NCBI GenBank assembly: GCA_001548435.1
Contig: AP017308.1
Location: forward strand, 3,667,030 to 3,731,029
Source: Leptolyngbya sp. NIES-3755
GTDB lineage: Bacteria > Cyanobacteriota > Cyanobacteriia > Leptolyngbyales > Leptolyngbyaceae
Reading direction: 5' to 3'
Length of the DNA stretch: 64,000 bases
Below the pieces are notes generated by a model. It had not been told where the DNA came from. It did no database searches and saw nothing but the letters and a program-made list of their open reading frames with translations. This document shows, piece after piece, positions 17,675 to 31,900 of this stretch. Each line of letters begins with the position of its first letter. The first letter of the stretch is position 1. Both the position numbers and the translations under genes were made by a program.

Positions 17675-17884
17675 ATGACTCCTGAAGACCAACAAGCGCT
17701 GAATGCCCATGTTCAAGCGATTGCAAAAATCTTGTACAACGATGCTGACAAAAGCCAGATAACGAATTTGGCAGAAATCGAAGCGATGGTGCGAACTCAA
17801 GTGCAACAGCACGTCACACCAGGATTAGGGAGTTTTTTATCACAGCAGTTACCGCCACAACTGAAGGCTACCCGCGACGGTTGA
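17675..17884 (+). CDS. ISKra4-like transposase, N-terminal frame
   Basis: This 69-residue helical frame (TPEDQQALNAHVQAIAKILY...LPPQLKATRDG) matches the N-terminal part expected ahead of the catalytic frame. Its TGA overlaps a TTG of the next frame (TTGA, 17881-17884) and the second frame lies at -1 relative to it. It is either a translationally coupled two-protein transposase, a programmed frameshift, or a degraded single gene. Confidence 0.6.
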   Translation: MTPEDQQALNAHVQAIAKILYNDADKSQITNLAEIEAMVRTQVQQHVTPGLGSFLSQQLPPQLKATRDG

Positions 17885-18774
17885 AAAGTATCTTAGGAGA
17901 ACTGCAATTGACGAGTGAACAAGCGACACGATTAGGGGTATCTGCGAGAAGCCAAATGAGTCCTTACTTGGAAGCGTGCTGTTTGAGAGCGAGTGCAACG
18001 GTTTCCTATGCCCGCGCAGAACGAGACATCGCGGTGTATACAGGAATGCGCGTCAGCGCCAAAACGCAACAACGATTAGTCCAGCGACAACCGTGGGAAG
18101 AACTTGAACCCGAAGCGCCAGAGCCGATTCTGGAAATCAGTATTGATGGCGGCAATGTGAAGTTAACCAGTGGCACTCAAGACGAACCGGACTGGCGACA
18201 GTACAAAGCCGTTCGCATCAATGGCAAGGGAGAAAGTCGAGCTTGGTTTCAGGACAATGAGGCATTGGTCGCAACAGTGAGCGCGCGTCCGATGGCAGAG
18301 GTCGTTGTCTGTCTGGGCGATGGACACGACGGCATCTGGAACTTGCATCAGCAGATCGTCGCGTTGAGCGAGCAACGGATTGAGATTCTCGATTGGTATC
18401 ATCTCAAGGAGAACTTGTTCAAGTTATCGAGCGACGAAATCGACCGAGAACAGATAGAAGCTCAGTTATGGAAAGGAGATGTGAGCGCTGCTCTAGCCCA
18501 ATTAGCGGCGTGTCCCTCCGATGAGGCAGAGCGGTTTTGCAACTATCTGCTGAAGCATCAACATCGGATTGTGAACTACGACTACTACGCGGCTGAGGAG
18601 CTATGTTCGATTGGGTCAGGAGCCGTGGAATCGTTGGTCAAACAAATTGATCAACGGTTGCAGATTGTTGGAGGTCGGTGGAAAGCGGAGCATATTCCGA
18701 AAGTGCTGGCACAACGCTGTGCTTATCTCAATGAGCAACTGAATCCCACGACATCTATTCTCTCAAGAAGGTGA
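17881..18774 (+). CDS. ISKra4-like transposase, catalytic frame
   Basis: The 297-residue frame carries a plausible DDE triad: D in EISIDGGNVKL, D in VCLGDGHDGIWNL and E in IGSGAVESLVKQ. It also contains ILDWYHLKENL and RWKAEHIPKVLAQRCAYLN, typical of this transposase group. Compared with longer relatives the Cys-rich zinc-binding segment normally found between N-terminal and catalytic parts seems missing or very short (only Cys pair CCLRAS), so activity is uncertain. Begins at TTG inside the preceding stop. Confidence 0.7.
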   Translation: MKSILGELQLTSEQATRLGVSARSQMSPYLEACCLRASATVSYARAERDIAVYTGMRVSAKTQQRLVQRQPWEELEPEAPEPILEISIDGGNVKLTSGTQDEPDWRQYKAVRINGKGESRAWFQDNEALVATVSARPMAEVVVCLGDGHDGIWNLHQQIVALSEQRIEILDWYHLKENLFKLSSDEIDREQIEAQLWKGDVSAALAQLAACPSDEAERFCNYLLKHQHRIVNYDYYAAEELCSIGSGAVESLVKQIDQRLQIVGGRWKAEHIPKVLAQRCAYLNEQLNPTTSILSRR

Positions 18775-19888: not shown

Positions 19889-20494
19889 ATGTCTTATCAA
19901 TACAGAGAGCAACAGTTTTACAATGTACAAACCGACGATCACGGTAAATTTCTAACTCCGTTTCAACGAAGACTACTGTTAAAAAACTTACAGCTAGAAC
20001 TTCGAGCAGAGTATCGTCGTCGAATTGAAATCATTTTGCTATCCGACATGGGACAATCTCAAGCACAGATCTGTGCCTTGCTTGGATGCTCCCAAGAAAC
20101 TGCCCGCTACTGGATCGCAATGACACAAGCAGGTCAAGCGCATCTTTGGGATCAAACTCCAGTCGGTCGTCCTAAAACGGTGAATAATCAGTATCTCGAT
20201 CGACTAAAAGATTTGGTCAATCATAGTCCGCGTGATTATGGATACCCATTTCAGACTTGGACCGCAGGATGGTTGAGTAAGCACTTGGCGAAAGAACTGG
20301 GAATCGAAATTAGCGATCGACATGTGAATCGATTGCTAAAAAGTATGGGACTGTCTAGCCAACAGCGTCGAACCGCTTGCCAACCGTCAGAAGAAGATTC
20401 AAAAAACTCGAACATTGTGATTGGAACTCTACAAGCGTCTTCGCTGCCTGAAGGTTCTAGTTTGTGGATGTTTCAGTCGAAGCCGCGCTCTTGA
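19889..20494 (+). CDS. Helix-turn-helix protein heading the exporter operon
   Basis: The 201-residue protein contains an HTH (DMGQSQAQICALLGCSQETA) followed by a winged-helix-like region (WTAGWLSKHLAKELGIEISD, HVNRLLKSMG) similar to the N-terminal DNA-binding part of IS630-type transposases, but without their DDE catalytic domain. It ends 12 bp before the exporter gene and is therefore likely co-transcribed with it. It may be a domesticated transposase fragment acting as regulator of the peptide locus; the regulatory role is inference from position. Confidence 0.6.
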   Translation: MSYQYREQQFYNVQTDDHGKFLTPFQRRLLLKNLQLELRAEYRRRIEIILLSDMGQSQAQICALLGCSQETARYWIAMTQAGQAHLWDQTPVGRPKTVNNQYLDRLKDLVNHSPRDYGYPFQTWTAGWLSKHLAKELGIEISDRHVNRLLKSMGLSSQQRRTACQPSEEDSKNSNIVIGTLQASSLPEGSSLWMFQSKPRS

Positions 20495-20506: not shown

Positions 20507-23209
20507 ATGACACATCCTTCCTTTGCTGAAGACTTGTCTCCTCAGCTTTTGTCCGATGCGCTGGGATGCGAACTTTCAGGATCAGAATTTGCGGACTGTT
20601 GCGCTGATATTCAATGGTTACAACCTGCTGCTGGAAAACGGTTCTGGGAAGCAACTCAGGGTGAGGTCGGTCTCTTCCTTGTGCTGAGTGGTAAAGTTCG
20701 ATTGCTCGATCGCCAAGATGAATTGTTAACGACACTGGGTCGGGGTGCGACTTTTGGTGAGCTTTGTTTGTTTCAAGACACAGCTTTACAACCCTACTTG
20801 GCGAGAGCTTCAGTCAATTTAAGACTAGCTTACTTACCAGAGCGGTGCTTAAAGACACTGATGCGAAGACACCCCAGTATTCGATCGCATCTCTACGAGC
20901 AAGCAATCCAACGAAATCAGCAATTGTTTCAAGCTGAGGTAGCGCCCACTGTATCAGAAGTCATCCCGATCGCTGCTAAAGCGCGAAAATCACGCAAATC
21001 CCGACGCTATTTTCCGAGTCCAACCGTTCAAATCGGACATTTATGGCAGGGATTGAGTCAGCGTTATCCGTTCTTTGCTCAACAAAGTGCTTCAGACTGT
21101 GGAGCGGCTTGTGTGGTGATGATTGCGCGGTATTGGGGCAAACAAGTCAGCGTGAATCGGTTGCGGGATATTGCGAATGTCGATCGTAATGGTGCATCAT
21201 TGCGCGGATTGACCACGGCTGCGGAAGCGATCGGGTTTTCGACGCGACCTGTGAAAGCGAGTCTCGATCAGTTAGCACAGCAGCGATTACCGGCGATCGC
21301 ACATTGGCAAGGAAATCATTTTGTCGTGGTGTATCGAGTTCATCGGAATCGGGTGGTTGTGGCTGATCCCTCGATCGGACAACGATCGATGAGTTATGCC
21401 GCATTCAAGGAAGGATGGACGGGATATGCACTATTGCTTGAACCGACTGCACTGTTTAAGCGCACTCCTGAGACTGAACAACTTTTCTGGCAGTTTTTGG
21501 AGTTGATTCGACCGCATTGGCTCGTTCTCACCGAGGTGTTTGCCGCTTCAATCCTGATTCAGGTGTTCGCGCTAGTCACTCCGATTTTGACGCAATTATT
21601 GCTCGATCGAGTTGTGGTTCAACGCAGTGAACTCACGCTCATGGTCGTGGGATGGGGATTACTGATTTTTGGATTGTTCCGGGTTGCGGTGACTGGACTG
21701 CGTCAGTATCTGCTCGATCACACTGCTAACCGAGTTGATCTAGCGATGATTGTTGGTTTTATTCAACATACCTTCCGTTTACCGCTGCAATTTTTTGAGT
21801 CTCGATTTGTCGGTGACATTATTGCTCGTGTTCAGGAAAATCATAAAATTCAGCGCTTTTTAACCGGGGAAGCTTTGTCGATTTTTCTGGATTTGCTAAC
21901 GGTGTTTGTCTATGTTGCACTAATGAGTTGGTATAGCTGGAAACTCACAATTTTAGTTTTGTTGATCATTCCACCGTTTGTTGTACTCGCTCTGGTTGCA
22001 ACTCCATTTTTGCAAAAAGTTTCACGGGAAATTTTTAATGCGATGGCAAACGAGAATAGTTACCTGATTCAATCACTGAGTGGTATTCGCACGATCAAAT
22101 CGATGGCAGTGGAGCAAAGTGTTCGTTGGCACTGGGAAGAATTGCTCAATCGCTATATTAAAACGAACTTTGCGGGACAGATGATCAGCAATCGTTTGGA
22201 GATCTTTAGTGCCACGATCGAGACCATGACGACGGGCGGATTACTGTGGTACGGAGGCTGGCTTGTCATTCAAAACGAACTCACGATCGGGCAATTGGTT
22301 GCTTTTAGCATGTTGCTCGGAAACATCATTCGCCCGTTTCAGCGCTTAACTGGATTGTGGCATCAACTCCAAGAAGTTGTGATTGCAGTGGAGCGAATTA
22401 ATGATGTTCTAGAAGCAGAACCCGAAGAAGAGTTAGATCGGCAGCCACGACAATCTTTGCCTGGACTACGGGGACAGATTCGATTTGAGCAAGTTACCTT
22501 CCGCTACCATCCAGAGAGTGATACGAATGTGCTTGAGAATCTTAGCTTTGAGATTCAACCGCATCAAACTGTCGCGATCGTGGGTCGAAGCGGTTCCGGT
22601 AAAACCACGATCGCGAAGTTAATTCTCGGTCTGTATCTCCCCACCAACGGCAAGATTTTGATCGATGGTCACGATATTACAAGCCTTTCATTACGGTCTT
22701 TACGCGAACAAGTTGGAGTGGTCGATCAAGATACCTTTTTGTTTGGGGGAACCATTCGGGAAAACATTGCGATCGCACATCCTTCCGCCACGCTCGAAGA
22801 AATTATTACGGCTTCTGAACAAGCGGGAGCCGATTCGTTTATCAAACAAATGCCGCTGGGCTATGAAACTCAGATCGGTGAAGGAGGCGGGCTTTTATCC
22901 GGTGGACAACGACAACGACTGGCGATCGCACGCGCCCTTCTCGGTCATCCTCGCCTCCTGATTCTCGATGAAGCGACTAGCCATCTCGATGCGGAATCAG
23001 AGCGGATTATTCAGACTAACTTAGGCACGATCTCCCGAAATAGAACCACGATTATTATTGCTCATCGACTATCCACCATTCGACAAGCCGATTTGATTCT
23101 AGTTCTCGATCGAGGAGTCCTAGTCGAGAGCGGAACACACGAAGCCTTAATGACAAAACGCGGACATTACTTCTATCTCAATCAACAGCAATTTGCTCAA
23201 GCTTTTTAG
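20507..23209 (+). CDS. C39-peptidase ABC exporter (PCAT) with N-terminal cNMP-binding-like domain
   Basis: The 900-residue protein has four parts. Residues about 30-130 resemble a cyclic-nucleotide-binding domain (GEVGLFLVLSGKVRLLD, GATFGELCLFQD). Residues about 190-320 are a C39 peptidase with catalytic Cys198 in SASDCGAACV, His in WQGNHFVVVY and Asp in VVADPSIG. A six-helix membrane domain follows, then an ATPase with GRSGSGKTT, LSGGQRQRLAIARAL and LLILDEATSHLD. Such exporters cut leader peptides after Gly-Gly and secrete the core. The double-glycine precursors 7 kb downstream are the obvious substrates. All catalytic motifs look intact. Confidence 0.93.
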   Translation: MTHPSFAEDLSPQLLSDALGCELSGSEFADCCADIQWLQPAAGKRFWEATQGEVGLFLVLSGKVRLLDRQDELLTTLGRGATFGELCLFQDTALQPYLARASVNLRLAYLPERCLKTLMRRHPSIRSHLYEQAIQRNQQLFQAEVAPTVSEVIPIAAKARKSRKSRRYFPSPTVQIGHLWQGLSQRYPFFAQQSASDCGAACVVMIARYWGKQVSVNRLRDIANVDRNGASLRGLTTAAEAIGFSTRPVKASLDQLAQQRLPAIAHWQGNHFVVVYRVHRNRVVVADPSIGQRSMSYAAFKEGWTGYALLLEPTALFKRTPETEQLFWQFLELIRPHWLVLTEVFAASILIQVFALVTPILTQLLLDRVVVQRSELTLMVVGWGLLIFGLFRVAVTGLRQYLLDHTANRVDLAMIVGFIQHTFRLPLQFFESRFVGDIIARVQENHKIQRFLTGEALSIFLDLLTVFVYVALMSWYSWKLTILVLLIIPPFVVLALVATPFLQKVSREIFNAMANENSYLIQSLSGIRTIKSMAVEQSVRWHWEELLNRYIKTNFAGQMISNRLEIFSATIETMTTGGLLWYGGWLVIQNELTIGQLVAFSMLLGNIIRPFQRLTGLWHQLQEVVIAVERINDVLEAEPEEELDRQPRQSLPGLRGQIRFEQVTFRYHPESDTNVLENLSFEIQPHQTVAIVGRSGSGKTTIAKLILGLYLPTNGKILIDGHDITSLSLRSLREQVGVVDQDTFLFGGTIRENIAIAHPSATLEEIITASEQAGADSFIKQMPLGYETQIGEGGGLLSGGQRQRLAIARALLGHPRLLILDEATSHLDAESERIIQTNLGTISRNRTTIIIAHRLSTIRQADLILVLDRGVLVESGTHEALMTKRGHYFYLNQQQFAQAF

Positions 23210-23219
23210 GGTTTTTCTC

Positions 23220-24626
23220 ATGCCATATTCGCCGAATTCTCACATCTCTCCGCACAATGGCGCAAATCATCATTCAAAGCCCGATCGTTCTCCAAGTCCT
23301 GTGTTAGAGCCTCAAGACACTGCTCAACCTAAACGTTCACCAACCTCTGAGGAAACTTGGTCGTATGGCACTCGTGATTTGCTCGATGCTTTGCCACAGG
23401 TTTGGACAAGAGGATTGCTGTACTTTCTGATTGTTTCTGCTGGAATTTTACTCCCTTGGTCGATGTTTGCGAAGGTTGATGAAACAGGGACAGCACGGGG
23501 ACGATTAGAACCGAGAGGAAAAACGATTCGGCTTGATGCTCCGGTTTCTGGTACGGTTGCTGCGATCAAAGTGAAAGAAGGGCAAACCGTTGCCGCCGGG
23601 GCAGTCTTAGTTGAACTTGAAACCGAAATGGCTCGATCGGAACTCGAACAAGCCCAAGCCCGCCTCGAAGGATTACGCAGTCGCTATACTCAGCTTCAAT
23701 TGATGCAAAATCAATCCTCAGTCAGCCTCAATACTCAACGACTTCAGAATCAAGCTCAAACCGCCGCACAGTCCGCCCAAGTCAATCAAACAAAGCAGCA
23801 ATTAAAACTCAGTGAGGCAACGACTGTACTGGTTCAAGAACTGATGACCAAAGATCGACAGAGAGTCGATCGCTTTACTCAATTACGCGATCAAGGCATC
23901 ATTCCTGGCATTCAAGTAGAGGATGCAGAACGAAATCTGATTGAAAGTCAGCAACGGTTAGCGAAAGCACAATCTGAGATTGAACAAGGACAATCTGAGC
24001 TATCCAAACAACAGAGCGGTCAGCAAAAACTTCAACGCGAAGGAGAGTTAATGCTGATCGAAAGTGAACGACGGCAGCGAGAGTTAGATGCTCAGATGCT
24101 AGAGACTCAGACGAACATTGATCAAACACTCAAGCAGATTGAATTACTTCAGTTTCAATTGCAACAACGAGTGATTCGCGCCCCGATCGCAGGAACAATC
24201 TTTCAACTCCCAGTGAAGAGTGCAGGTGCAGTTTTGCCCACAGGCGGAATGGTAGCTCAGATTGCACCTCAAAATACGAATGTGGTGTTAAAAGCTCAAA
24301 TTCCTAGCGAAAATAGTGGCTTTTTGCGGGTGGGCTTGCCTGTGAAAGTGAAATTTGATGCTTATCCGTTTCAGGATTATGGTGTAGTGTCAGGTCATGT
24401 TCGCTGGATTTCTCCAGATTCTAAGGTCAAAGAAACACCACAAGGTTCGTATGAAGTGTTTGATTTAGACATTGTGCTCGATCAACCTTACATTGAAAGC
24501 GGCAAGAAGCGAATTTCGCTAGCCCCTGGACAAACCGCGATCGCAGAAGTGATCGTGCGGCAACGTCGCGTGATTGACTTTGTACTTGATCCCTTTAAGA
24601 AGCTACAGTCTGGCTTAAAATTGTAA
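23220..24626 (+). CDS. HlyD-family membrane fusion protein
   Basis: Start chosen at ATG 23220, ten bases after the exporter stop; an upstream in-frame start would overlap the exporter. The 468-residue protein has a short cytoplasmic N-terminus, one membrane segment (GLLYFLIVSAGILLPWSMF), a lipoyl half-motif (LDAPVSGTVAAIKVKEGQTV), a long coiled-coil hairpin rich in Gln, a second lipoyl half (VIRAPIAGTIFQLPV) and a beta-barrel C-terminus. It bridges the ABC exporter to an outer-membrane channel such as TolC, which is not in this window. Part of a type I secretion operon with the preceding gene. Confidence 0.9.
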   Translation: MPYSPNSHISPHNGANHHSKPDRSPSPVLEPQDTAQPKRSPTSEETWSYGTRDLLDALPQVWTRGLLYFLIVSAGILLPWSMFAKVDETGTARGRLEPRGKTIRLDAPVSGTVAAIKVKEGQTVAAGAVLVELETEMARSELEQAQARLEGLRSRYTQLQLMQNQSSVSLNTQRLQNQAQTAAQSAQVNQTKQQLKLSEATTVLVQELMTKDRQRVDRFTQLRDQGIIPGIQVEDAERNLIESQQRLAKAQSEIEQGQSELSKQQSGQQKLQREGELMLIESERRQRELDAQMLETQTNIDQTLKQIELLQFQLQQRVIRAPIAGTIFQLPVKSAGAVLPTGGMVAQIAPQNTNVVLKAQIPSENSGFLRVGLPVKVKFDAYPFQDYGVVSGHVRWISPDSKVKETPQGSYEVFDLDIVLDQPYIESGKKRISLAPGQTAIAEVIVRQRRVIDFVLDPFKKLQSGLKL

Positions 24627-24629
24627 GCT

Positions 24630-24683
24630 AAAAAAAGCGATTCCTGTGTCAACGTGCTGTACTACGAGGCAACAGGAATCGCT
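24630..24683 (-). terminator. Intrinsic terminator of the peptide-biosynthesis operon
   Basis: A perfect 12-bp stem, AGCGATTCCTGT (24636-24647) with ACAGGAATCGCT (24672-24683), is followed on the minus strand by a run of seven T. It lies just beyond the last leftward gene and between convergent operons, so it may also slow rightward transcription. Confidence 0.75.
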
Positions 24684-24712: not shown

Positions 24713-25504
24713 TCAAGAAAGCTGAGATTGTACGACTTCCCTAGAGGAAGTAAAAACCGTTTGATCTGGATCAAGCTGAACTGCAAGCCGAGCTTGTTCT
24801 AGTTGTTGCTTCAACCAGTCTGCAAATAGATCAGCCAAGATCTGCATTCGGAGTGTTTCATCTAACTCTGGCTGCACAATTTCCTCAACCTTGATTAAAT
24901 GCGCTCCTCGCGGTGTGATGATCGGTCTCAATAGTTGTGGAGGCGTGGAGGCAAACACCGCAGCAGAAATTTCTGGTCTCAACTCCGATCGAGAAATTTT
25001 TCCACGATAGCCCCCCATCCGACGCTGTTCGATGTCTTCACTATACTGTTGTGCGACTTCATGAAACTGCATTTCACCTTCTTGCAGCGCGTAGTAAACC
25101 TCGATCGCTAAATCCTCGTCCTCGAATACGACTTCATACAACACCGCAGCCGTATAATCTAGCTGATGCGCCACGAAAAAAGATTCAACGCGATCGCTCA
25201 ATAAATGTTCCGCTAACTTCGCGGATAGTACATTGTTGTGAGCGATCGCCTCGAATTCATCCACCGACAAACAATGCTTTGCTAACCAACTCCAGGTGGA
25301 TTCGGGTGTCAGGAGATTGTTTGCAATCCGAACGGTGTCCGCTGCTTGTTGTAGCTCTGTCACTTCGACGTTAATTCCATCTGCTGCTGCCACTTCTGTG
25401 ATAATTTTTCGAGTTGCGATCGCTTCTGCGATCGTGGGAACTTGGCAGGATATTTTGATGTATTGAATGATTTCTGGAAGAGAAATCGCAATTACTCTGG
25501 TCAT
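24713..25504 (-). CDS. Parvulin-type (PpiC/SurA-like) protein of the peptide locus, copy 1
   Basis: The 263-residue protein has an N-terminal helical SurA-like region (LTPESTWSWLAKHCLSVDEF) and a C-terminal parvulin domain, recognised by FHEVAQQYSEDIEQRRMGGY, ELRPEISAAVF and RPIITPRGAHLIKVEEI. Parvulins isomerise peptidyl-proline bonds or act as chaperones. There is no evident signal peptide, so it probably works in the cytoplasm. It is the last gene of the operon headed by the precursor genes and is paralogous to the gene upstream. A chaperone or modification-accessory role for precursor peptides is inference. Confidence 0.75.
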   Translation of the reverse strand: MTRVIAISLPEIIQYIKISCQVPTIAEAIATRKIITEVAAADGINVEVTELQQAADTVRIANNLLTPESTWSWLAKHCLSVDEFEAIAHNNVLSAKLAEHLLSDRVESFFVAHQLDYTAAVLYEVVFEDEDLAIEVYYALQEGEMQFHEVAQQYSEDIEQRRMGGYRGKISRSELRPEISAAVFASTPPQLLRPIITPRGAHLIKVEEIVQPELDETLRMQILADLFADWLKQQLEQARLAVQLDPDQTVFTSSREVVQSQLS

Positions 25505-25598
25505 GATTTTCCTGGGAACATCCTAGAGTCTTCAACAACGATGAACGAAGAGAGCGAATATTGTCTCCCTTCGTTTTCTCTTTCTTCAATTGGATCAC

Positions 25599-26387
25599 CT
25601 ATTGATGGCTTTGTTTCTGATGTAATTCCTGCATCCAAGCTTGGAATAGCACATCTAGTAGCTGTGTCCGCATCGATTCATTTAGCTCGACTGGATACCA
25701 TTTTTCAATTTTGAGAATGTGATAGCCCAATTTAGAATGAACTGGACCCACAATCTCGCCTTCGTGAGCAGAGCGAATTGCCTCTACAATCTCTGGTGTC
25801 AGTTCAGCAAACAATCGCACTCCGACAAATCCGCCGTTCATCTGCGACTGTTTTCCTTTTGAGTACTCTAGTGCCAGCGCACAGAACGAAGCTTTTTCAT
25901 CGCGCAACTGACGAACGAGTGTTAATGCAGTCGCAAGATCGACGACTAGAATTTGAGACAAAGCAACACGACGATGACGTTCTCGATCGCCAAAATAGTT
26001 ACTATCAATCATTGCCCCAAATAAATGCTCTTTGAGCTTGTCGGTCAACAACTGAACTTTGATACCTTCAGACCAAGCTTCTACAGTGATTCGTTGTTGA
26101 TCGAGCCAATCGATCGTTGCAGTCGGACTGAGTAACTGATGCTTCGTCCGAAAATCATCTCCCGCTGCTTGCCACTCGTCATCAGAAACCGTGATCCCTA
26201 ACTGTTTGCAAATCGATAGCACGGTTGCATCTTGTTCTGATGCGATCGCAATTTCAGCAAAGCGACACGATCGACGAAGATATGCCAAAATCTGCTCGTC
26301 AGTGGCAAATTCGATTTCAGGAAGCGTAAATCCTAGTGAAGTCTCTTCTACTGGAGCTTCTACAGTTGTTTTCAAATTTTCTTTCAT
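25599..26387 (-). CDS. Parvulin-type (PpiC/SurA-like) protein of the peptide locus, copy 2
   Basis: This 262-residue paralogue shares the layout of its downstream neighbour: a helical N-terminal region with LLSPTATIDWLDQQRITVEAW and a parvulin domain with CALALEYSKGKQSQMNGGFV, LTPEIVEAIRSAHEGEIVGP and SKLGYHILKIEKW. It lies 31 bp after the aldo/keto reductase gene in the same operon and 94 bp before copy 1. No signal peptide. Two divergent copies suggest they may form a heterodimer or serve different precursors (inference). Confidence 0.75.
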   Translation of the reverse strand: MKENLKTTVEAPVEETSLGFTLPEIEFATDEQILAYLRRSCRFAEIAIASEQDATVLSICKQLGITVSDDEWQAAGDDFRTKHQLLSPTATIDWLDQQRITVEAWSEGIKVQLLTDKLKEHLFGAMIDSNYFGDRERHRRVALSQILVVDLATALTLVRQLRDEKASFCALALEYSKGKQSQMNGGFVGVRLFAELTPEIVEAIRSAHEGEIVGPVHSKLGYHILKIEKWYPVELNESMRTQLLDVLFQAWMQELHQKQSHQ

Positions 26388-26418
26388 AGCTACCAGATTG
26401 ATGATGAACAGGTTTGTT

Positions 26419-27444
26419 TTACCGGGTGATCAGTTGGTCTAGTGGAATATCTTGAATGTTGATGCGACTTCGATGGAGATCGCCGTACAGATTGAGATAG
26501 TTCAGTTCTTCTGGGGTGAGCTTACCTTTTGACATTGCCTCGATCGCGCTATCAACATGCTCACGAGTTTGCCATCCAGCAAGTGCCACATCGACTGCAT
26601 TCTGACTCAAAGCATAGCGGTACAAATCGGGAACTGAAGGAGTCCAACAGTGTTTTGGTAAGCCTGGAGGGGGCTGATCTAACGCATTGAACATTCCCGC
26701 TGATTTAAACGTCACCACACCCGGTCGAGTTGGATCGTCTGCTTTTAAGTGCGGGAACACTTTCTTTTGAGCGGTTCGATGAGCAACATTGTGCCGCACC
26801 ATCACCACGTCGAGCAAAGAACTATCGAGGTACTGCTGTGCTAAATCGTGATCGTGAAATGATGCACCAATGTATCGGACTGCGCCCATCTTTTTCAGGC
26901 GTTCTGAAACTCCGAACATTCGCTCGATCGTCCGTTGACAGACCGTATTTGGACCTCGGATATCCGGAGACGCATTGATGCACTTTTCAAACGCGGGTGC
27001 ATTGTGTTGATCAATCCAACCCCAAAACAAGACATCAATGTAATCAATTCCCAGATCGACAAATTGATCAAATAAGTTCGAGAAGACAGCATCTGGGGTC
27101 CGAATAATGTAGGTCACAGTGGCTAAAACAACCTTGTCTCGGACGGATGAACGCCGCCCACAAAGTTGTCTGAGTGCAGGAGCCATCGAACTATACAAAT
27201 ACTGGTGAAGATCACTGGAATAGAAAAAATAGTTGATTCCGCGATCGAAGGCATAGAGTGTATCTTCGCTCGAAATATGACCCCCGCCGCCTAACCCCAA
27301 ACAACTCACTGTTAGATCTGTTCGTCCTAACTTTCGATAAAAAGACAGATCAGAGTTCGGAAAGCGAGAGTTCATCACAGCCAGTTCATCATATTGCTCC
27401 AGAGATGGCTCTGAACGTGGAGCGGTTAGATTCGTAAGTTTCAT
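26419..27444 (-). CDS. Aldo/keto reductase-family protein of the peptide locus
   Basis: The 341-residue protein has the AKR opening FYRKLGRTDLTVSCLGLGGG, the strand-loop DRGINYFFYSSD where the catalytic Asp/Tyr region lies, FVDLGIDYIDVLFWGW, and MGAVRYIGASFHDHDLAQQY. Canonical residues around the active-site Asp are altered (FFYSSD for FDTA), so substrate and even catalysis are uncertain. Its ATG overlaps the stop of the HopA1-family gene (ATGA), so both proteins are made together. It could reduce dehydroamino acids or the peptide backbone of the precursor products (inference). Confidence 0.75.
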   Translation of the reverse strand: MKLTNLTAPRSEPSLEQYDELAVMNSRFPNSDLSFYRKLGRTDLTVSCLGLGGGGHISSEDTLYAFDRGINYFFYSSDLHQYLYSSMAPALRQLCGRRSSVRDKVVLATVTYIIRTPDAVFSNLFDQFVDLGIDYIDVLFWGWIDQHNAPAFEKCINASPDIRGPNTVCQRTIERMFGVSERLKKMGAVRYIGASFHDHDLAQQYLDSSLLDVVMVRHNVAHRTAQKKVFPHLKADDPTRPGVVTFKSAGMFNALDQPPPGLPKHCWTPSVPDLYRYALSQNAVDVALAGWQTREHVDSAIEAMSKGKLTPEELNYLNLYGDLHRSRINIQDIPLDQLITR

Positions 27445-28535
27445 AGCGCTAACGGGGTGTAAATGTCTGCTGAATCACGATTGAGGTAAGGGTGCTGCAA
27501 ATCGACCTGAAGCAGCGAAAAATGACGCACGATCGCATCGAGTCGTCCTTCTGGAGACGCATCTCCCCGATGCCAAGCTTCGAGCAGTCCATTTGCCACA
27601 ATCTGACATCGATTCATTCCAAAACTTTCTTGCTCGGCAAATTTGCAGTCTGGTTCTTCTGCAAGTCCCAATCCAGGTGCAAGCTGCTTAGTAAACAAGG
27701 GAATTGCTTCTCCAAAGTGCGCTTGGTGTTCAAGATAGATATCACGCAGAATCGGTTGAATTTCACTGTATCTCGCTTGATCAAAGTACAATACCGCTGC
27801 ATCGTAGCGATGATAATCAGACGGATTGTAGAGTGCTTTGAATGCAAAAGGCAAAGTAGCAGCATTCAAGCGTTCTGTGAGTGTTTTCATCACACAAACT
27901 GCTCCTTCAGCCGTGAGATTAAAATACACTCGCACGATCGATTCATCGCGATGTTGTCCTGCATTCCCGATCGCCATGTAAAAGCCATTTTGCACAAGGT
28001 TTCGAGGTAAGCGAATTGCGATCGCATCTCCAACGCAAATCAATTGTTGTGGATTTTCTAAATGTCGATCGCGTTGAATATGCAGCGTTAATCCACCCTG
28101 ACTCACCGCAATGCTACCGTCACTCTCTTCACGCAATACACACCAGTTTGGGCTGAAATATCCGGTTCCTTGATTGTTGGCGTGTAAGCGATCGTAAAAG
28201 GCATAGTCCACACCTAAATAATTGTTGTTGTCTAAATTCTGGTGCAATGCCAAATTTGTTGCTTCTGAACTAGGTGCAAGCGAAAGCTTTAACGAACCGT
28301 TGTAGTAGATGCCATACAGAAAGTTGCATAGTATCAGCGTCAAATACTTATTCTGTATATCTTTTGGCAAGTTCCGAAATCGTTCGATCGACTCTGGTGG
28401 TAGTTCAAGTGGCTTATAGTTTGGATGGCGAATACACCAATTTGGCTCGATTTGAAGATTGTGGATCATATCTTGCAATTCTGACTGTAAAGAATCAGAG
28501 ATTGCAGCCGTTTGAGAGAAATCTAAGAGTTGCAT
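27441..28535 (-). CDS. HopA1-family protein, candidate lyase half of a split Ser/Thr dehydratase
   Basis: Start set at ATG 28535, overlapping the kinase stop by 13 bp; an upstream start at 28610 is possible. The 364-residue protein shows the C-terminal HopA1-family pattern: GDAIAIRLPRNLVQNGFYM, RVYFNLTAEGAVCVMKTL, LPFAFKALYNPSDYHRYDAA and AVLYF. HopA1-like proteins (for example LxmY and TvaD) act with an APH-like kinase in class V lanthipeptide and thioamitide biosynthesis, where phospho-Ser/Thr is eliminated to dehydroamino acids. The kinase is the adjacent upstream gene here. Family assignment is confident; activity on the local precursors is inferred. Confidence 0.82.
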   Translation of the reverse strand: MQLLDFSQTAAISDSLQSELQDMIHNLQIEPNWCIRHPNYKPLELPPESIERFRNLPKDIQNKYLTLILCNFLYGIYYNGSLKLSLAPSSEATNLALHQNLDNNNYLGVDYAFYDRLHANNQGTGYFSPNWCVLREESDGSIAVSQGGLTLHIQRDRHLENPQQLICVGDAIAIRLPRNLVQNGFYMAIGNAGQHRDESIVRVYFNLTAEGAVCVMKTLTERLNAATLPFAFKALYNPSDYHRYDAAVLYFDQARYSEIQPILRDIYLEHQAHFGEAIPLFTKQLAPGLGLAEEPDCKFAEQESFGMNRCQIVANGLLEAWHRGDASPEGRLDAIVRHFSLLQVDLQHPYLNRDSADIYTPLAL

Positions 28536-29698
28536 AATGTTGAATTCGTGGGGAGTAGATCGGACTGTTCCATGCCAAAAACTGTCGAAATCGAAGCTTC
28601 TGGACGGCATAAAAGCGACTTTGCAACTTGCAACATACAGATGCCATTGTTGCCAAAAGATTTTTGATATTGCAGCGTAGATTGAATCACCGTGATCAAG
28701 TTCAAGCCTGCAAATTGAACCACTCGTTTAAGGAAGTCTGGACGCTGCTCTAAGATTTGTGGGAAAGTCTCTAGATATGCGATCGTCACAGCCGCGATCG
28801 AGGATTGTAGACCTTCAAGCGGTGTCGTCGCCATTCGCAATGATTCATCAATACTAATCGTTTTGCTAGTAATTAAACTGCCTAACCAAATCGTCAGATA
28901 GCTTCCCACAAGCGACCCTAAATCAAAGGCAGGATCGCCCCAGTCGGCTCTTTCCCAATCAATCAATCGAATCACACCTGGATCTGCTGTTTCAGCTTGA
29001 CAATCGGTTTTAATCCAATCGGTTGAGATCAGAAAATTATTGAGTTTGACATCGTGATGGCTGAGACAAATCGGTTGGATAGAATCAGATAATTCCGCGA
29101 TCGCTTGTCCAAGACTGTCATATCGCTGATAAAGGGCAAAAAACTTCAATCCATCCGATGGAACCAACCCAAAAATCTCAGGTTCAATTCGTCCAATTCC
29201 CTCGGCTAAATGACTTGCAACTCCAGCAAGTTTATGCTCAGTAAAATAATTTCGGTAGTTCTGTTGATTAAACGTAAGCTGATGGAGTGTTGCTAAAATT
29301 TTTCCGATTTTCTGAGCAACCTCGATCGGAAAGCGATTCTCTCGATAGTAAAAATCAGCTAAATCTCGATAATGCTCTAAGTATCGAAAGACAATAATTG
29401 AATTTTCAATATCAAAATATACTCCCTCAGAGATGCAGCCTTTCAGCGGATCTAGCTGAAGAAATTGACGCACCAACTCCTGAATTGCCCACTCTCGCTG
29501 AAACTCCCCGATCGTCTCACCATCACGATCGTGCGGTTCTTGTTTTACCAAAAGTTTTCTATCTGACAACTGCACCAAGAGATTGAAGTTTTTCGCCTGT
29601 TTAAGTTCTACTTTTGCTTGATCTTTTTCGTCTTCGCGGCAAAGATCGCGTTGAGTCAAATACTCTAAAACATTCTGGAAACTTAGCAGAAATGCCAT
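28523..29698 (-). CDS. APH-like phosphotransferase, candidate kinase half of a split Ser/Thr dehydratase
   Basis: The 391-residue protein has the aminoglycoside-phosphotransferase/choline-kinase fold: Lys in RKLLVKQEPHDRDG, catalytic loop LSHHDVKLNNFLIS and metal-binding IRLIDWERADWGDPAFDLG. Kinases of this kind (LxmK, TvaC) phosphorylate Ser/Thr of RiPP precursors before a HopA1-type protein eliminates phosphate. It lies 246 bp after the last precursor gene and overlaps the HopA1 gene. An antibiotic-resistance role is unlikely in this context. Confidence 0.82.
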   Translation of the reverse strand: MAFLLSFQNVLEYLTQRDLCREDEKDQAKVELKQAKNFNLLVQLSDRKLLVKQEPHDRDGETIGEFQREWAIQELVRQFLQLDPLKGCISEGVYFDIENSIIVFRYLEHYRDLADFYYRENRFPIEVAQKIGKILATLHQLTFNQQNYRNYFTEHKLAGVASHLAEGIGRIEPEIFGLVPSDGLKFFALYQRYDSLGQAIAELSDSIQPICLSHHDVKLNNFLISTDWIKTDCQAETADPGVIRLIDWERADWGDPAFDLGSLVGSYLTIWLGSLITSKTISIDESLRMATTPLEGLQSSIAAVTIAYLETFPQILEQRPDFLKRVVQFAGLNLITVIQSTLQYQKSFGNNGICMLQVAKSLLCRPEASISTVFGMEQSDLLPTNSTLCNS

Positions 29699-29799
29699 GA
29701 TAAAAACTCCTTTAACTGAAGCGATCGAACAATTCTTGCTTGGAGTTAAACGCGGTTTGATTAGAACTTTTTGTCTTCTAAAACCTTCAGCGAATCAAA

Positions 29800-30012
29800 T
29801 CAGAAAGTCAAGGCTTCTGCTTTAGCTTTTCGGTCACAACTCAGATAAATATGTCCTAAAAATTTCTGACAGCAAAAAGGAAGTGGGTCACTCGACCCAC
29901 ATAACCGGTAGATGAACCCTGCTGCTCCGAGCAAAGCCAAAACGCTAATGCAATTTCCACCAAACAGATAATTGAGCAGCATGATTGTCGAACAGATTAA
30001 ACCACTCACCAA
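29800..30012 (-). CDS. Possible small membrane peptide overlapping the last precursor gene
   Basis: A 70-residue frame (TTG at 30012 or GTG at 30009) overlaps the 3' end of the sixth precursor gene in another frame. It encodes two hydrophobic stretches (LICSTIMLLNYLF and CISVLALLGAAGFIYRLCG) and five Cys. It might be an immunity or accessory peptide, or the real end of a frameshifted precursor, or chance. The start lacks a good ribosome-binding site, so support is weak. Confidence 0.25.
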   Translation of the reverse strand: MVSGLICSTIMLLNYLFGGNCISVLALLGAAGFIYRLCGSSDPLPFCCQKFLGHIYLSCDRKAKAEALTF

Positions 30013-30238
30013 ACAAGCCCCTCAAAGCCTGTAACGCCTGAGTGTCTTCGGCTCGATAAGCGACCGCAATCTGTTCAGGAGGATTGATATAACCAAGGCT
30101 CACCGTCACTTGACTAATCACTAATCCACCATTGATCATTTTGAAATCATCGTCTCGGAGTTCATGTAAAAAGCTTTCGGAATCTTCAAATAAGTCTGAC
30201 CCGATCGCAGAAAGTTGAGCAATTTGGATACTAGGCAT
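29945..30238 (-). CDS. Double-glycine RiPP precursor 6 (divergent)
   Basis: Start at ATG 30238 with AGGAG eight bases upstream. The leader matches its siblings (SAIGSDLFEDSESFLHEL) and ends ...KMINGG. The core begins LVISQVTVSLGY, which aligns with the shared core motif, but then departs (INPPEQIAVAYRAED and an aromatic tail LSVWWKLH). No Cys in the core. It is longer than the others and may be decaying or specialised. Confidence 0.75.
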   Translation of the reverse strand: MPSIQIAQLSAIGSDLFEDSESFLHELRDDDFKMINGGLVISQVTVSLGYINPPEQIAVAYRAEDTQALQALRGLFGEWFNLFDNHAAQLSVWWKLH

Positions 30239-30324
30239 GAGCACTTCTCCTGATCTATTGGATTTTTACACTGGGAACACGCCTCCATTGGTCATCAAAA
30301 GAGAGTTGAATCATTCACAGCGAA

Positions 30325-30579
30325 TTAATGAGCGATCGACAAAATTGAAGCTGTTTGAAAACCGATCGCAACAGAGACCGTTACGTTAGTTTGAACAACC
30401 CCGGAGTAGTATTGAAGACTGAGAACCGGATGAACCACGATCGACAAACCGACAACATCAGCAAGACCACCCGCCACATCTTGTAAGTCTGATGGGGCTA
30501 GATCCTGTAGAAAACTCTCAGCATCCTGAAAGAGTTCAGAGCCTGCCGGAGATAAAGCAGAAATTTTAATCTGAGACAT
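30325..30579 (-). CDS. Double-glycine RiPP precursor 5
   Basis: Start set at the internal ATG 30579, which aligns with sibling starts; an upstream in-frame start at 30624 adds 15 unconserved residues. The leader contains SPAGSELFQDAESFLQDL and ends DVAGG. The core (about 46 residues) has VQTNVTVSVAIGFQTASI, matching the common core motif, plus a His-Pro and a Tyr-Tyr pair; it has no Cys. Expected to be cut after Gly-Gly by the C39 exporter. Confidence 0.85.
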   Translation of the reverse strand: MSQIKISALSPAGSELFQDAESFLQDLAPSDLQDVAGGLADVVGLSIVVHPVLSLQYYSGVVQTNVTVSVAIGFQTASILSIAH

Positions 30580-30668
30580 AGCCGTGCGACCAGAAATTTT
30601 GCAGAAAGGAAAGTTCCAGCACAAACATGCCGAAACAATCAGTCAGTATTAGAGTCCAACAGCAAATC

Positions 30669-30911
30669 CTAAAATCTAGGCAGAGACCTCACGACACTCA
30701 CGACCGAGAGACTCTGAAGACTAATTCCCATTGAAACCGTCACTTGACTATTCACCCCGATCGTTTGCGTCACCACACTGATAAAGACAACCTGAGCATC
30801 GCCACCCACAACTCTCGTATCTTCACTACTCAGTTCATTGAGGTAGCTTTCTGAGTCCTGGAACAACTCAGCACCCGCGGGCTGTAGATGATCAATTTTG
30901 ATAGTAGGCAC
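30669..30911 (-). CDS. Double-glycine RiPP precursor 4
   Basis: An 80-residue peptide with leader motif LQPAGAELFQDSESYLNEL ending VVGG and a Cys-free core containing NSQVTVSMGISLQSLSVV, where Ser/Thr alternate with aliphatic residues. Same strand and layout as precursors 1-3, from which it is separated by a 223-bp spacer with a strong hairpin. The basic end is RSLPRF. Confidence 0.87.
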   Translation of the reverse strand: MPTIKIDHLQPAGAELFQDSESYLNELSSEDTRVVGGDAQVVFISVVTQTIGVNSQVTVSMGISLQSLSVVSVVRSLPRF

Positions 30912-30944
30912 AGTTCAGACTCCTGATAACTTTTAGTTGAACTG

Positions 30945-30980
30945 GTCCTCGATCGACGTTAGAATACATCTATCGAGGAC
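30945..30980. other. Hairpin between precursor genes 3 and 4
   Basis: Arms GTCCTCGAT (30945-30953) and ATCGAGGAC (30972-30980) are perfect complements. No T-run follows on the minus strand, so it is more likely an mRNA stabiliser or attenuator that sets levels of precursors 1-3 above the rest than a full terminator. Confidence 0.4.
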
Positions 30981-31134
30981 GCATGAACGTTGCTTCCCAC
31001 GAACGAGAGGCGGTAGAAGTTAACAGCGAATGAAATCAGATTGATCTTGAATCATGGCACGTTGCTTTCCCGGTAATCATTGCCGTAATTCAGATCACCC
31101 ATTTCAAACTGCTTGATTTATTTCTGCCGTCTTT

Positions 31135-31362
31135 TTAGAAGAAGACCGAATAAGGACTGTTATAGGTTTTCACCGTTACAACAGAGGCGGTCTTGATCGA
31201 GATACCGATACTCGCTGTAAATTGGCTCAGAACACTAATGTTCACATCGCCACCACCGCGAATGTCGAGATCTCGATCGTTCAACTCGTTCAGAAAGCTC
31301 TCAGAATCTTGAAACAGTTCAGATCCAACTGGGCGCAATTCAGAGATTTTGATACTAGCCAT
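31135..31362 (-). CDS. Double-glycine RiPP precursor 3
   Basis: A 75-residue peptide whose first 46 residues, through the IRGGG processing site to VLSQ, are identical to those of precursors 1 and 2. The variable part reads FTASIGISIKTASV, then the shared VTVKTYNSP and an end YSVFF. No Cys. The ribosome-binding site is AGGAG just upstream of ATG 31362. Probably a tandem duplicate diversified in the core only. Confidence 0.9.
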   Translation of the reverse strand: MASIKISELRPVGSELFQDSESFLNELNDRDLDIRGGGDVNISVLSQFTASIGISIKTASVVTVKTYNSPYSVFF

Positions 31363-31398
31363 TTGATTCTCCTAGTAAGGTTAAAAGGCTGCTAGAGC

Positions 31399-31626
31399 TT
31401 AAAAGAAGAAGGTTTTGGGACTGTTGTAGGTCTTCACCGTGACCACACTCTGCGTGTAAATCGAAATACCGACACTCGCTGTATATTGGCTTAGAACACT
31501 AATGTTCACATCGCCACCACCGCGAATGTCGAGATCTCGATCGTTCAACTCGTTCAGAAAGCTTTCAGAGTCTTGGAACAATTCAGATCCAACTGGGCGC
31601 AATTCAGAAATTTTGATGCTAGCCAT
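31399..31626 (-). CDS. Double-glycine RiPP precursor 2
   Basis: A 75-residue peptide, leader identical to precursors 1 and 3 (RPVGSELFQDSESFLNEL, ending IRGGG). The core has YTASVGISIYTQSVVTVK and the end SPKTFFF. No Cys. It lies 36 bp upstream of precursor 3, with AGGAG before ATG 31626. Ser/Thr occur roughly every two to four residues, the probable modification sites. Confidence 0.9.
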   Translation of the reverse strand: MASIKISELRPVGSELFQDSESFLNELNDRDLDIRGGGDVNISVLSQYTASVGISIYTQSVVTVKTYNSPKTFFF

Positions 31627-31672
31627 TTTGATTCTCCTGGTAAATTTACAAACTGTGGCACATTACTAGAAT

Positions 31673-31900
31673 TTAGAAAAAGAAGGATTTGGGACTGTTG
31701 TAGGTCTTCACCGTGACTACGCTCTGAGTCAGGATCGAGATACCGTAACTGTAGCTGTACTGGCTCAGAACACTAATGTTCACATCGCCACCACCGCGAA
31801 TGTCGAGATCTCGATCGTTCAACTCGTTCAGAAAGCTTTCAGAGTCTTGGAACAGTTCAGATCCGACCGGGCGCAATTCAGAGATTTTAATACTAGCCAT
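31673..31900 (-). CDS. Double-glycine RiPP precursor 1 (first gene of the operon)
   Basis: A 75-residue peptide with the common leader and a Tyr-rich variable segment YSYSYGISILTQSVV before VTVKTYNSP and SFFF. No Cys. AGGAGAG lies six bases before ATG 31900. It is promoter-proximal, so the operon promoter should lie in the 356-bp spacer to its right. Confidence 0.9.
   Translation of the reverse strand: MASIKISELRPVGSELFQDSESFLNELNDRDLDIRGGGDVNISVLSQYSYSYGISILTQSVVTVKTYNSPKSFFF

Follow-up and report, generated by a model that had tools for sequence, protein, structure and literature searches.

A candidate dehydroamino-acid reductase beside the kinase and HopA1-family lyase of a cysteine-free peptide operon in Leptolyngbya sp. 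NIES-3755

Introduction

What becomes of Ser and Thr residues that are dehydrated in a ribosomal peptide offering no Cys for a thioether ring? The question is raised by a leftward, minus-strand operon in a stretch of 64,000 nucleotides from Leptolyngbya sp. NIES-3755 (contig AP017308.1, positions 3,667,030 to 3,731,029; here called the window), in which six precursor genes are followed by genes for an APH-type kinase, a HopA1-family lyase, an aldo-keto reductase (AKR)-like protein, and two PpiC-type proteins (Table 1). The operon is present as described in an earlier note made from the letters of this DNA, which left the AKR-like gene (26419-27444) and both PpiC-type genes unmentioned and took the product for a linear, multiply dehydrated or otherwise modified peptide. 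Our own reading, to which we give slightly less than even odds (a probability of about 0.48), is that Ser and Thr are dehydrated without formation of thioether rings and are then, most probably, reduced by the AKR-like protein to D-Ala and D-aminobutyrate (D-Abu).

Results

Pfam rejects neither the APH nor the HopA1 assignment of the earlier note, and the two genes overlap as it had stated. The HopA1 open reading frame opens at 28610, the likelier start being the ATG at 28535, which gives a 13-base overlap with the kinase gene. Among solved structures, the sole match of the HopA1 protein at E < 0.001 was to the chain named 'Lyase' of 9dk1 (also 9dk2 and 9dk3; E 1.9e-8 for 9dk1_B), and the kinase matched the partner chain of this type of structure weakly (E 0.09). 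9DK3 is named as LxmK from lexapeptide in PMC12291118 (papers are cited here from partial texts). Against the NCBIfam LxmK model, the kinase scored 80.7 bits and did not reach the cut-off of 315. In the CaoY lyase, R187, K219, and R229 were mutated and Y236 was assigned by alignment (PMC9486802). Their counterparts in the window protein are R227, K258, R268, and Y275, so that the Arg, Lys, Arg, and Tyr of a class V HopA1-type lyase are all in place; the K-x9-R-x6-Y spacing is the same, and the distance from the first Arg to the Lys is 31 residues instead of 32. These four residues are retained in 128, 119, 133, and 127 of 134 aligned sequences, and the kinase motif residues H, D, K, N, and D in 125-131 of 132 (the window's own sequence being counted in both alignments). 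The intact catalytic residues of lyase and kinase make it likely, as far as sequence can tell, that this pair dehydrates Ser/Thr in the Leptolyngbya operon.

All six precursors match a double-glycine leader profile (built from 11 seeds, four of them leaders from the window), and none of the six cores contains, after Gly-Gly, the Cys from which a class V peptide would form (methyl)lanthionine. The genome, rated 99.99% complete, holds a single HopA1 match and no LANC-like or YcaO match, and thus lacks the YcaO thioamidation gene that characterizes thioamitides. The earlier note was right on each of these counts (six Gly-Gly precursors, cores without Cys, no cyclase or YcaO gene), as it was in pointing to an adjacent C39 exporter, which is expected to cleave after GG.

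The gene that follows HopA1 encodes a divergent member of the AKR superfamily, which scores 41.7 bits against PF00248 (cut-off 24). Its alignment to canonical AKRs from the same genome covers residues 36-236 (169 columns) with a profile probability of 98.6%. Searched for in its own right, independently of HopA1, the protein was found in 9 of 386 cyanobacterial genomes and in 60 of 217 genomes of one bacterial family. Of the 68 loci from this search, 61 carry HopA1, the kinase, or both at a distance of up to 6 kb (one of them, L160, also has a LanM-like gene), and seven have LanM with NHLP-type precursors; none lacked a dehydratase in the regions of 7-20 kb considered. The 68 are the 72 loci counted minus four found through the HopA1 search (L032, L041, L045, and L046). 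Six of the 68 were obtained through HopA1 but are AKR-search matches as well, and a duplicate (G462:C34) and fragments in G406, G456, and G468 lie outside the count. LanM identity was confirmed by Pfam in two of the seven loci and the NHLP leader by NCBIfam in one. The AKR-like protein accordingly occurs with two unrelated dehydratases.

LanM normally carries out both dehydration and cyclization. In the seven AKR/LanM loci, 32 of 36 NHLP cores are free of Cys, compared with 2 of 24 in LanM loci without AKR (p 2e-10, the cores not being independent); counted by locus, five of seven with AKR are wholly Cys-free and none of 12 without it (Fisher p 0.0018). The controls were 20 LanM loci without AKR from the same bacterial family, 12 of which gave NHLP matches that could be cut. 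Altogether, 60 of 72 NHLP matches were cut into leader and core; by eye, the 12 uncut ones comprise seven Cys-free matches on the AKR side and five controls, of which three have Cys, one is Cys-free, and one has no core. The triplet of conserved LanM Cys positions that we take to be zinc ligands is intact in 3 of 10 AKR-side LanMs versus 22 of 22 controls, and two of these three come from the two AKR/LanM loci whose cores have Cys. Elsewhere in the dehydratase and cyclase domains, conserved columns are kept about equally on both sides, and the cyclase domain is therefore not simply decaying. In the AKR tree, LanM-associated members fall in two separate, well-supported places, corresponding to at least two switches between LanM and HopA1, and L190 sits on a long branch. 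In the LanM setting, then, thioether formation mostly does not follow the dehydration with which the AKR-like protein is associated.

AKR-like genes were also seen on plasmids, AP018323.1 of Nostoc sp. HK-01 and NZ_CP050443.1 of Tolypothrix sp. PCC 7910. The features annotated under the match in NZ_CP050443.1 include a HopA1 family protein.

Relatives of the window HopA1 occur in 56 of 386 sampled cyanobacterial genomes (the window's own counted), the nearest named one in Pseudanabaenaceae cyanobacterium LEGE 13415. Our survey of 79 HopA1 loci consists of 60 wide regions from sampled genomes, 18 named loci, and the window. The leader profile gave 229 matches in 63 of them. Of the 208 cores with a recognizable GG, 195 are Cys-free (21 leader matches without a recognized GG are excluded, and a few rows, L063 and L092, are duplicated), and of the 58 loci with clear GG cores, 48 are without Cys throughout, 5 mix both kinds of core, and 5 have Cys in every core. 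Lack of core Cys is the rule in such HopA1 loci and not peculiar to the window.

The earlier note did not recognize the class. The cluster type is nevertheless already known, because genome mining has described cyanobacterial HopA1/phosphotransferase clusters as Family 1A (Eyles 2021, PMC8153245). Its 183 clusters with 570 peptides are confined to Cyanobacteria, and the peptides share a conserved GG leader, whereas none of Ser, Thr, and Cys is conserved in the cores. The window shares with this family HopA1 beside a phosphotransferase, a cyanobacterial host, and several precursors that differ from one another, have the conserved GG leader, and show no conserved core Cys. It differs in the AKR-like protein of its operon, none being mentioned in the accessible part of PMC8153245. 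The earlier note would have yielded to a described cluster of this architecture with a characterized product; the architecture has been described, and for the large cyanobacterial HopA1 family we found no described product in the open-licence literature (main texts, without supplements). Cyanobacterial 'type-B' peptides are mentioned in PMC9486802, the collection of which required Cys.

A separate group of HopA1 paralogues has the lyase Lys replaced by Gln (L089, L090, L093, L095, L097, L099, L100, L102, L103, L104, and L106), and no Family 1A precursor was found near them. Their neighbors include UbiA (L102), AMP-binding (L095), and DUF815 (L089) genes, which by eye resemble a phylloquinone-type locus. 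Genes of one radical SAM family recur no more than 6 kb from HopA1 in 23 loci, of which 19 also carry the AKR-like gene; the member at L155 12970-14229 belongs to the nif11-class maturases (TIGR04103 836.6 bits, cut-off 725).

Discussion

We propose that the kinase would phosphorylate Ser and Thr in the six Cys-free cores and that the lyase would eliminate the phosphate to give dehydroalanine (Dha) and dehydrobutyrine (Dhb). The AKR-like protein, whose cistron comes next and overlaps that of the lyase, would then act on the dehydro residues, the most probable reaction being reduction to D-Ala and D-Abu. The C39/ABC/HlyD exporter would cleave after Gly-Gly and secrete the products, and the PpiC proteins might help in folding or secretion. 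Dehydration in the source strain, like the chemistry of the AKR-like protein and the stereochemistry and biological role of the peptides, we infer from the genes. Given the associations of the AKR-like protein, reduction of Dha/Dhb, the reaction of LanJ enzymes, would be the simplest end of a chain in which no thioether follows dehydration. The linear dehydrated product of the earlier note agrees with the intact catalytic residues, but the AKR-like gene suggests that the dehydro residues are processed further. Three types of LanJ are named, LanJA (zinc), LanJB (flavin), and LanJC (F420H2) (PMC11519912, PMC10373908). Like the AKR-like proteins, they accompany class II and V dehydratases, and they reduce Dha and/or Dhb to D-Ala/D-Abu; no AKR is among the three types in the accessible parts of these papers, and the window AKR is a candidate reductase.

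Several observations weigh against this proposal. The catalytic tetrad of canonical AKRs is Asp-Tyr-Lys-His, and in the AKR-like protein all four columns are replaced (Asp by Tyr75, Tyr by His80, Lys by Val110, and His by Gly142), as an alignment of 11 members with five canonical AKRs from the same genome shows. Among 73 members gathered without a motif filter, some of them fragments, position 75 is Tyr in 69, Phe in 3, and Leu in 1; His80 is found in 72; and Val110, Gly142 with its flanking Trp141 and Trp143, Arg217, Asn219, and Lys247 are invariant. With the replaced positions nearly fixed, NAD(P)H chemistry is not assured, and the loss of the tetrad leaves room for a non-redox role. A structure model from five sequences is poor (pLDDT 48), such that the cofactor site cannot be judged from it, and among solved structures the protein had no more than weak matches, at its N-terminus, to potassium-channel beta subunits. 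The distribution of the gene is a further concern. Of 51 HopA1 loci counted (L050-L099 and the window), 7 have it and 44 do not; it is therefore not required for Cys-free products, and the products of HopA1 loci without it may stay dehydrated. Where HopA1 occurs together with the AKR-like gene, 56 of 227 cores contain Cys and 171 do not, and 62 such loci (three of 65 yielded no precursor) comprise 36 wholly Cys-free, 17 mixed, and 9 wholly Cys-bearing. The link with Cys-free cores is thus weaker here than in HopA1 loci at large, and AKR cannot serve as a marker of ring-free products. Since known LanJ enzymes also serve true lanthipeptides, Cys-bearing AKR loci do not exclude reduction. On the LanM side, two of the seven AKR loci combine Cys cores with intact cyclase ligands. 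Nor are the AKR loci independent, since most were found in a single bacterial family and are related by descent. Finally, Ser/Thr residues are not significantly better kept than other positions between the window cores and those of the nearest relative, L032 (35/40 versus 110/146, p 0.13).

Much of this would also fit a linear polydehydrated final product that retains its Dha and Dhb, the AKR-like protein serving the dehydratase as a chaperone or scaffold without catalytic activity. The tetrad is lost in 11 of 11 aligned members, 44 of the 51 HopA1 loci counted lack AKR, cores in loci of this kind being mostly Cys-free, and a LanM-type enzyme yields eight dehydro residues and no lanthionine (PMC10676384). 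What makes this outcome less likely in our view is that the residues replacing the tetrad are nearly fixed in the 73 members, as in an active site under selection, and that the presence of AKR beside two unrelated dehydratases argues against a dehydratase-specific scaffold. Conceivably, nucleophiles other than Cys (amines, the backbone, or external thiols) attack the dehydro residues to give non-thioether rings or adducts, catalyzed by the AKR-like or a PpiC protein. Lys, Asn, and Gln do occur in Cys-free cores, and the non-canonical AKR has its invariant Arg217, Asn219, and Lys247, but the 18-residue core block of the window type has no conserved Lys (5/20 at the best position), and we regard such chemistry as unlikely. 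That block was found with a pattern already demanding Ser/Thr at several places and is a description rather than a test.

Two further explanations part from our proposal at an earlier step. If the kinase and lyase were inactive relics, the peptides would be unmodified class II bacteriocins, which is improbable with catalytic residues kept in 119-133 of 134 lyase and 125-131 of 132 kinase sequences and with genes that overlap and are widely retained. A class V lanthipeptide drawing its Cys from another peptide or an external thiol might be envisaged, as the class V dehydratase consists of a LanK/LanY pair (PMC9486802) and a quarter of the cores in AKR-bearing HopA1 loci have Cys. We consider this highly improbable for the window, with Cys in none of its six cores, no LANC-like domain in the genome, and no second, LanX-like kinase (one APH gene among nine proteins scanned, the rest of the genome not being searched for LanX).

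A wider and more tentative proposal than reduction in the window is that the AKR-like proteins are a fourth, structurally new dehydroamino-acid reductase serving both HopA1/kinase and LanM systems and defining Cys-free 'dehydrate-and-reduce' peptides, some class II synthetases having given up zinc-dependent cyclization. A protein that follows dehydration whatever the type of dehydratase offers a direct handle on the products of the HopA1 family. Should it reduce dehydro residues, one more enzyme fold would be known by which D-amino acids enter ribosomal peptides, and the loss of Cys from some LanM cyclase domains and from their cores would be explained.

Known systems parallel parts of the proposed route. 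Like bicereucin biosynthesis, it would involve dehydration followed by reduction. Bicereucin comes from a Bacillus host and a LanM dehydratase, and one of its components is not known to contain lanthionine. It contains D-Ala/D-Abu (PMC10373908), and its reductase is the flavin-dependent LanJB (PMC11519912), whereas the window has an AKR-like protein. Class V lanthipeptides (lexapeptide, cacaoidin, and pristinin A3) share the APH-type kinase and the HopA1-type lyase, down to the residues of CaoY, and the LxmJ-type formation of D-Ala is a functional parallel. In contrast, no core Cys, cyclase, or decarboxylase was seen in the window operon, and the class V reductase is F420H2 dependent rather than AKR-like. 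Carnazolamide CcaM/LanMbC resembles the AKR-side LanMs as a dehydratase with a non-zinc cyclase domain and a dehydrated product without lanthionine, but it requires azoles, has a fused class III cyclase domain, and comes with no mention of an AKR in the accessible part of PMC10676384.

A general Ser/Thr alternation, as the idea of a beta-helix would have it, was considered and rejected: in de-duplicated cores, the lag-2 ratio is 1.06 for 130 AKR-positive and 1.61 for 46 AKR-negative cores. The window cores show no gramicidin-like placement of Ser/Thr at every second position (12 lag-2 pairs, 12.9 expected). Cores at three loci (core starts L153 11685-13165, L156 1851-3552, and L173 13023-13272) do show an almost regular alternation of Ser/Thr with Val/Ile/Leu/Tyr/Trp, the longest strict run being 12, in L173. 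Full conversion there might give ribosomally made alternating L/D peptides resembling gramicidin, a rather unlikely outcome. Another AKR-linked core type has repeated Asn-Ala-Asn-Thr-type units (L041, L061, L135, L136, L139, L144, L149, and L150).

Other features of the locus

Table 1. Features of the precursor operon and its surroundings (window coordinates)
Feature	Coordinates	Strand	Basis or remark
Precursor A1, 75 aa	31673..31900	-	Cys-free core after GGG; leader-profile match, GG core, AGGAG upstream
Precursor A2, 75 aa	31399..31626	-	leader identical to A1
Precursor A3, 75 aa	31135..31362	-	leader identical to A1
Precursor A4, 80 aa	30669..30911	-	GTG start
Precursor A5, 84 aa	30325..30579	-	ATG at 30579, no clear ribosome-binding site
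Precursor A6, 97 aa	29945..30238	-	ATG at 30238, long tail with three Trp
Hairpin with T-rich tail, possible attenuator	29883..29900	-	consensus scan only
APH-fold peptide Ser/Thr kinase (LanK/LxmK-like)	28523..29698	-	Pfam APH PF01636 E 4.3e-10, above cut-off
HopA1-family phospho-Ser/Thr lyase (LanY-like)	27441..28535	-	PF17914 205.6 bits (cut-off 22.7), E 6.5e-61
Divergent AKR-like protein, candidate dehydroamino-acid reductase	26419..27444	-	4-nt overlap with HopA1
PpiC-type protein 2 (rotamase)	25599..26387	-	PF00639; TIGR04500 59.4 bits, below cut-off
PpiC-type protein 1 (rotamase)	24713..25504	-	PF00639; TIGR04500 83.1 bits, below cut-off
Perfect 12-nt inverted repeat, possible bidirectional terminator	24636..24683 (24636-24647 + 24672-24683)		
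HlyD-type membrane fusion protein	23193..24626	+	TIGR01843 222.9 bits, above cut-off 208.65
Exporter, N-terminal cNMP-binding-like, C39 peptidase, and ABC domains	20507..23209	+	PF03412, PF00664, PF00005, PF00027
Helix-turn-helix (HTH) protein next to exporter, possible regulator	19889..20494	+	Pfam HTH domains

The gap of 246 bases between the last precursor and the kinase gene holds the possible attenuator; the consensus scan that listed it gave 11 hairpin sites in the region, against 7.0 (sd 3.0) in shuffles. The strong terminator that the earlier note placed at the end of the operon is plausible as far as the inverted repeat goes, its arms 24 nt apart between two convergent genes, but the repeat was not among the sites listed by the consensus terminator scan. 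The PpiC type of 25599..26387 accompanies AKR in 64 of 72 AKR loci.

The C39-ABC and HlyD genes lie on the opposite strand, convergent with the precursor operon. Proteins like the HTH protein beside them (representative L048 16261-16869, with the same Pfam HTH domains) occur in 75 of 141 clustered loci. The window member resembles the N-terminal part of IS630 transposases (below cut-off) and may be a domesticated regulator. Upstream of the exporter, a transposase-like open reading frame (17881-18774, plus strand) was recognized by eye.

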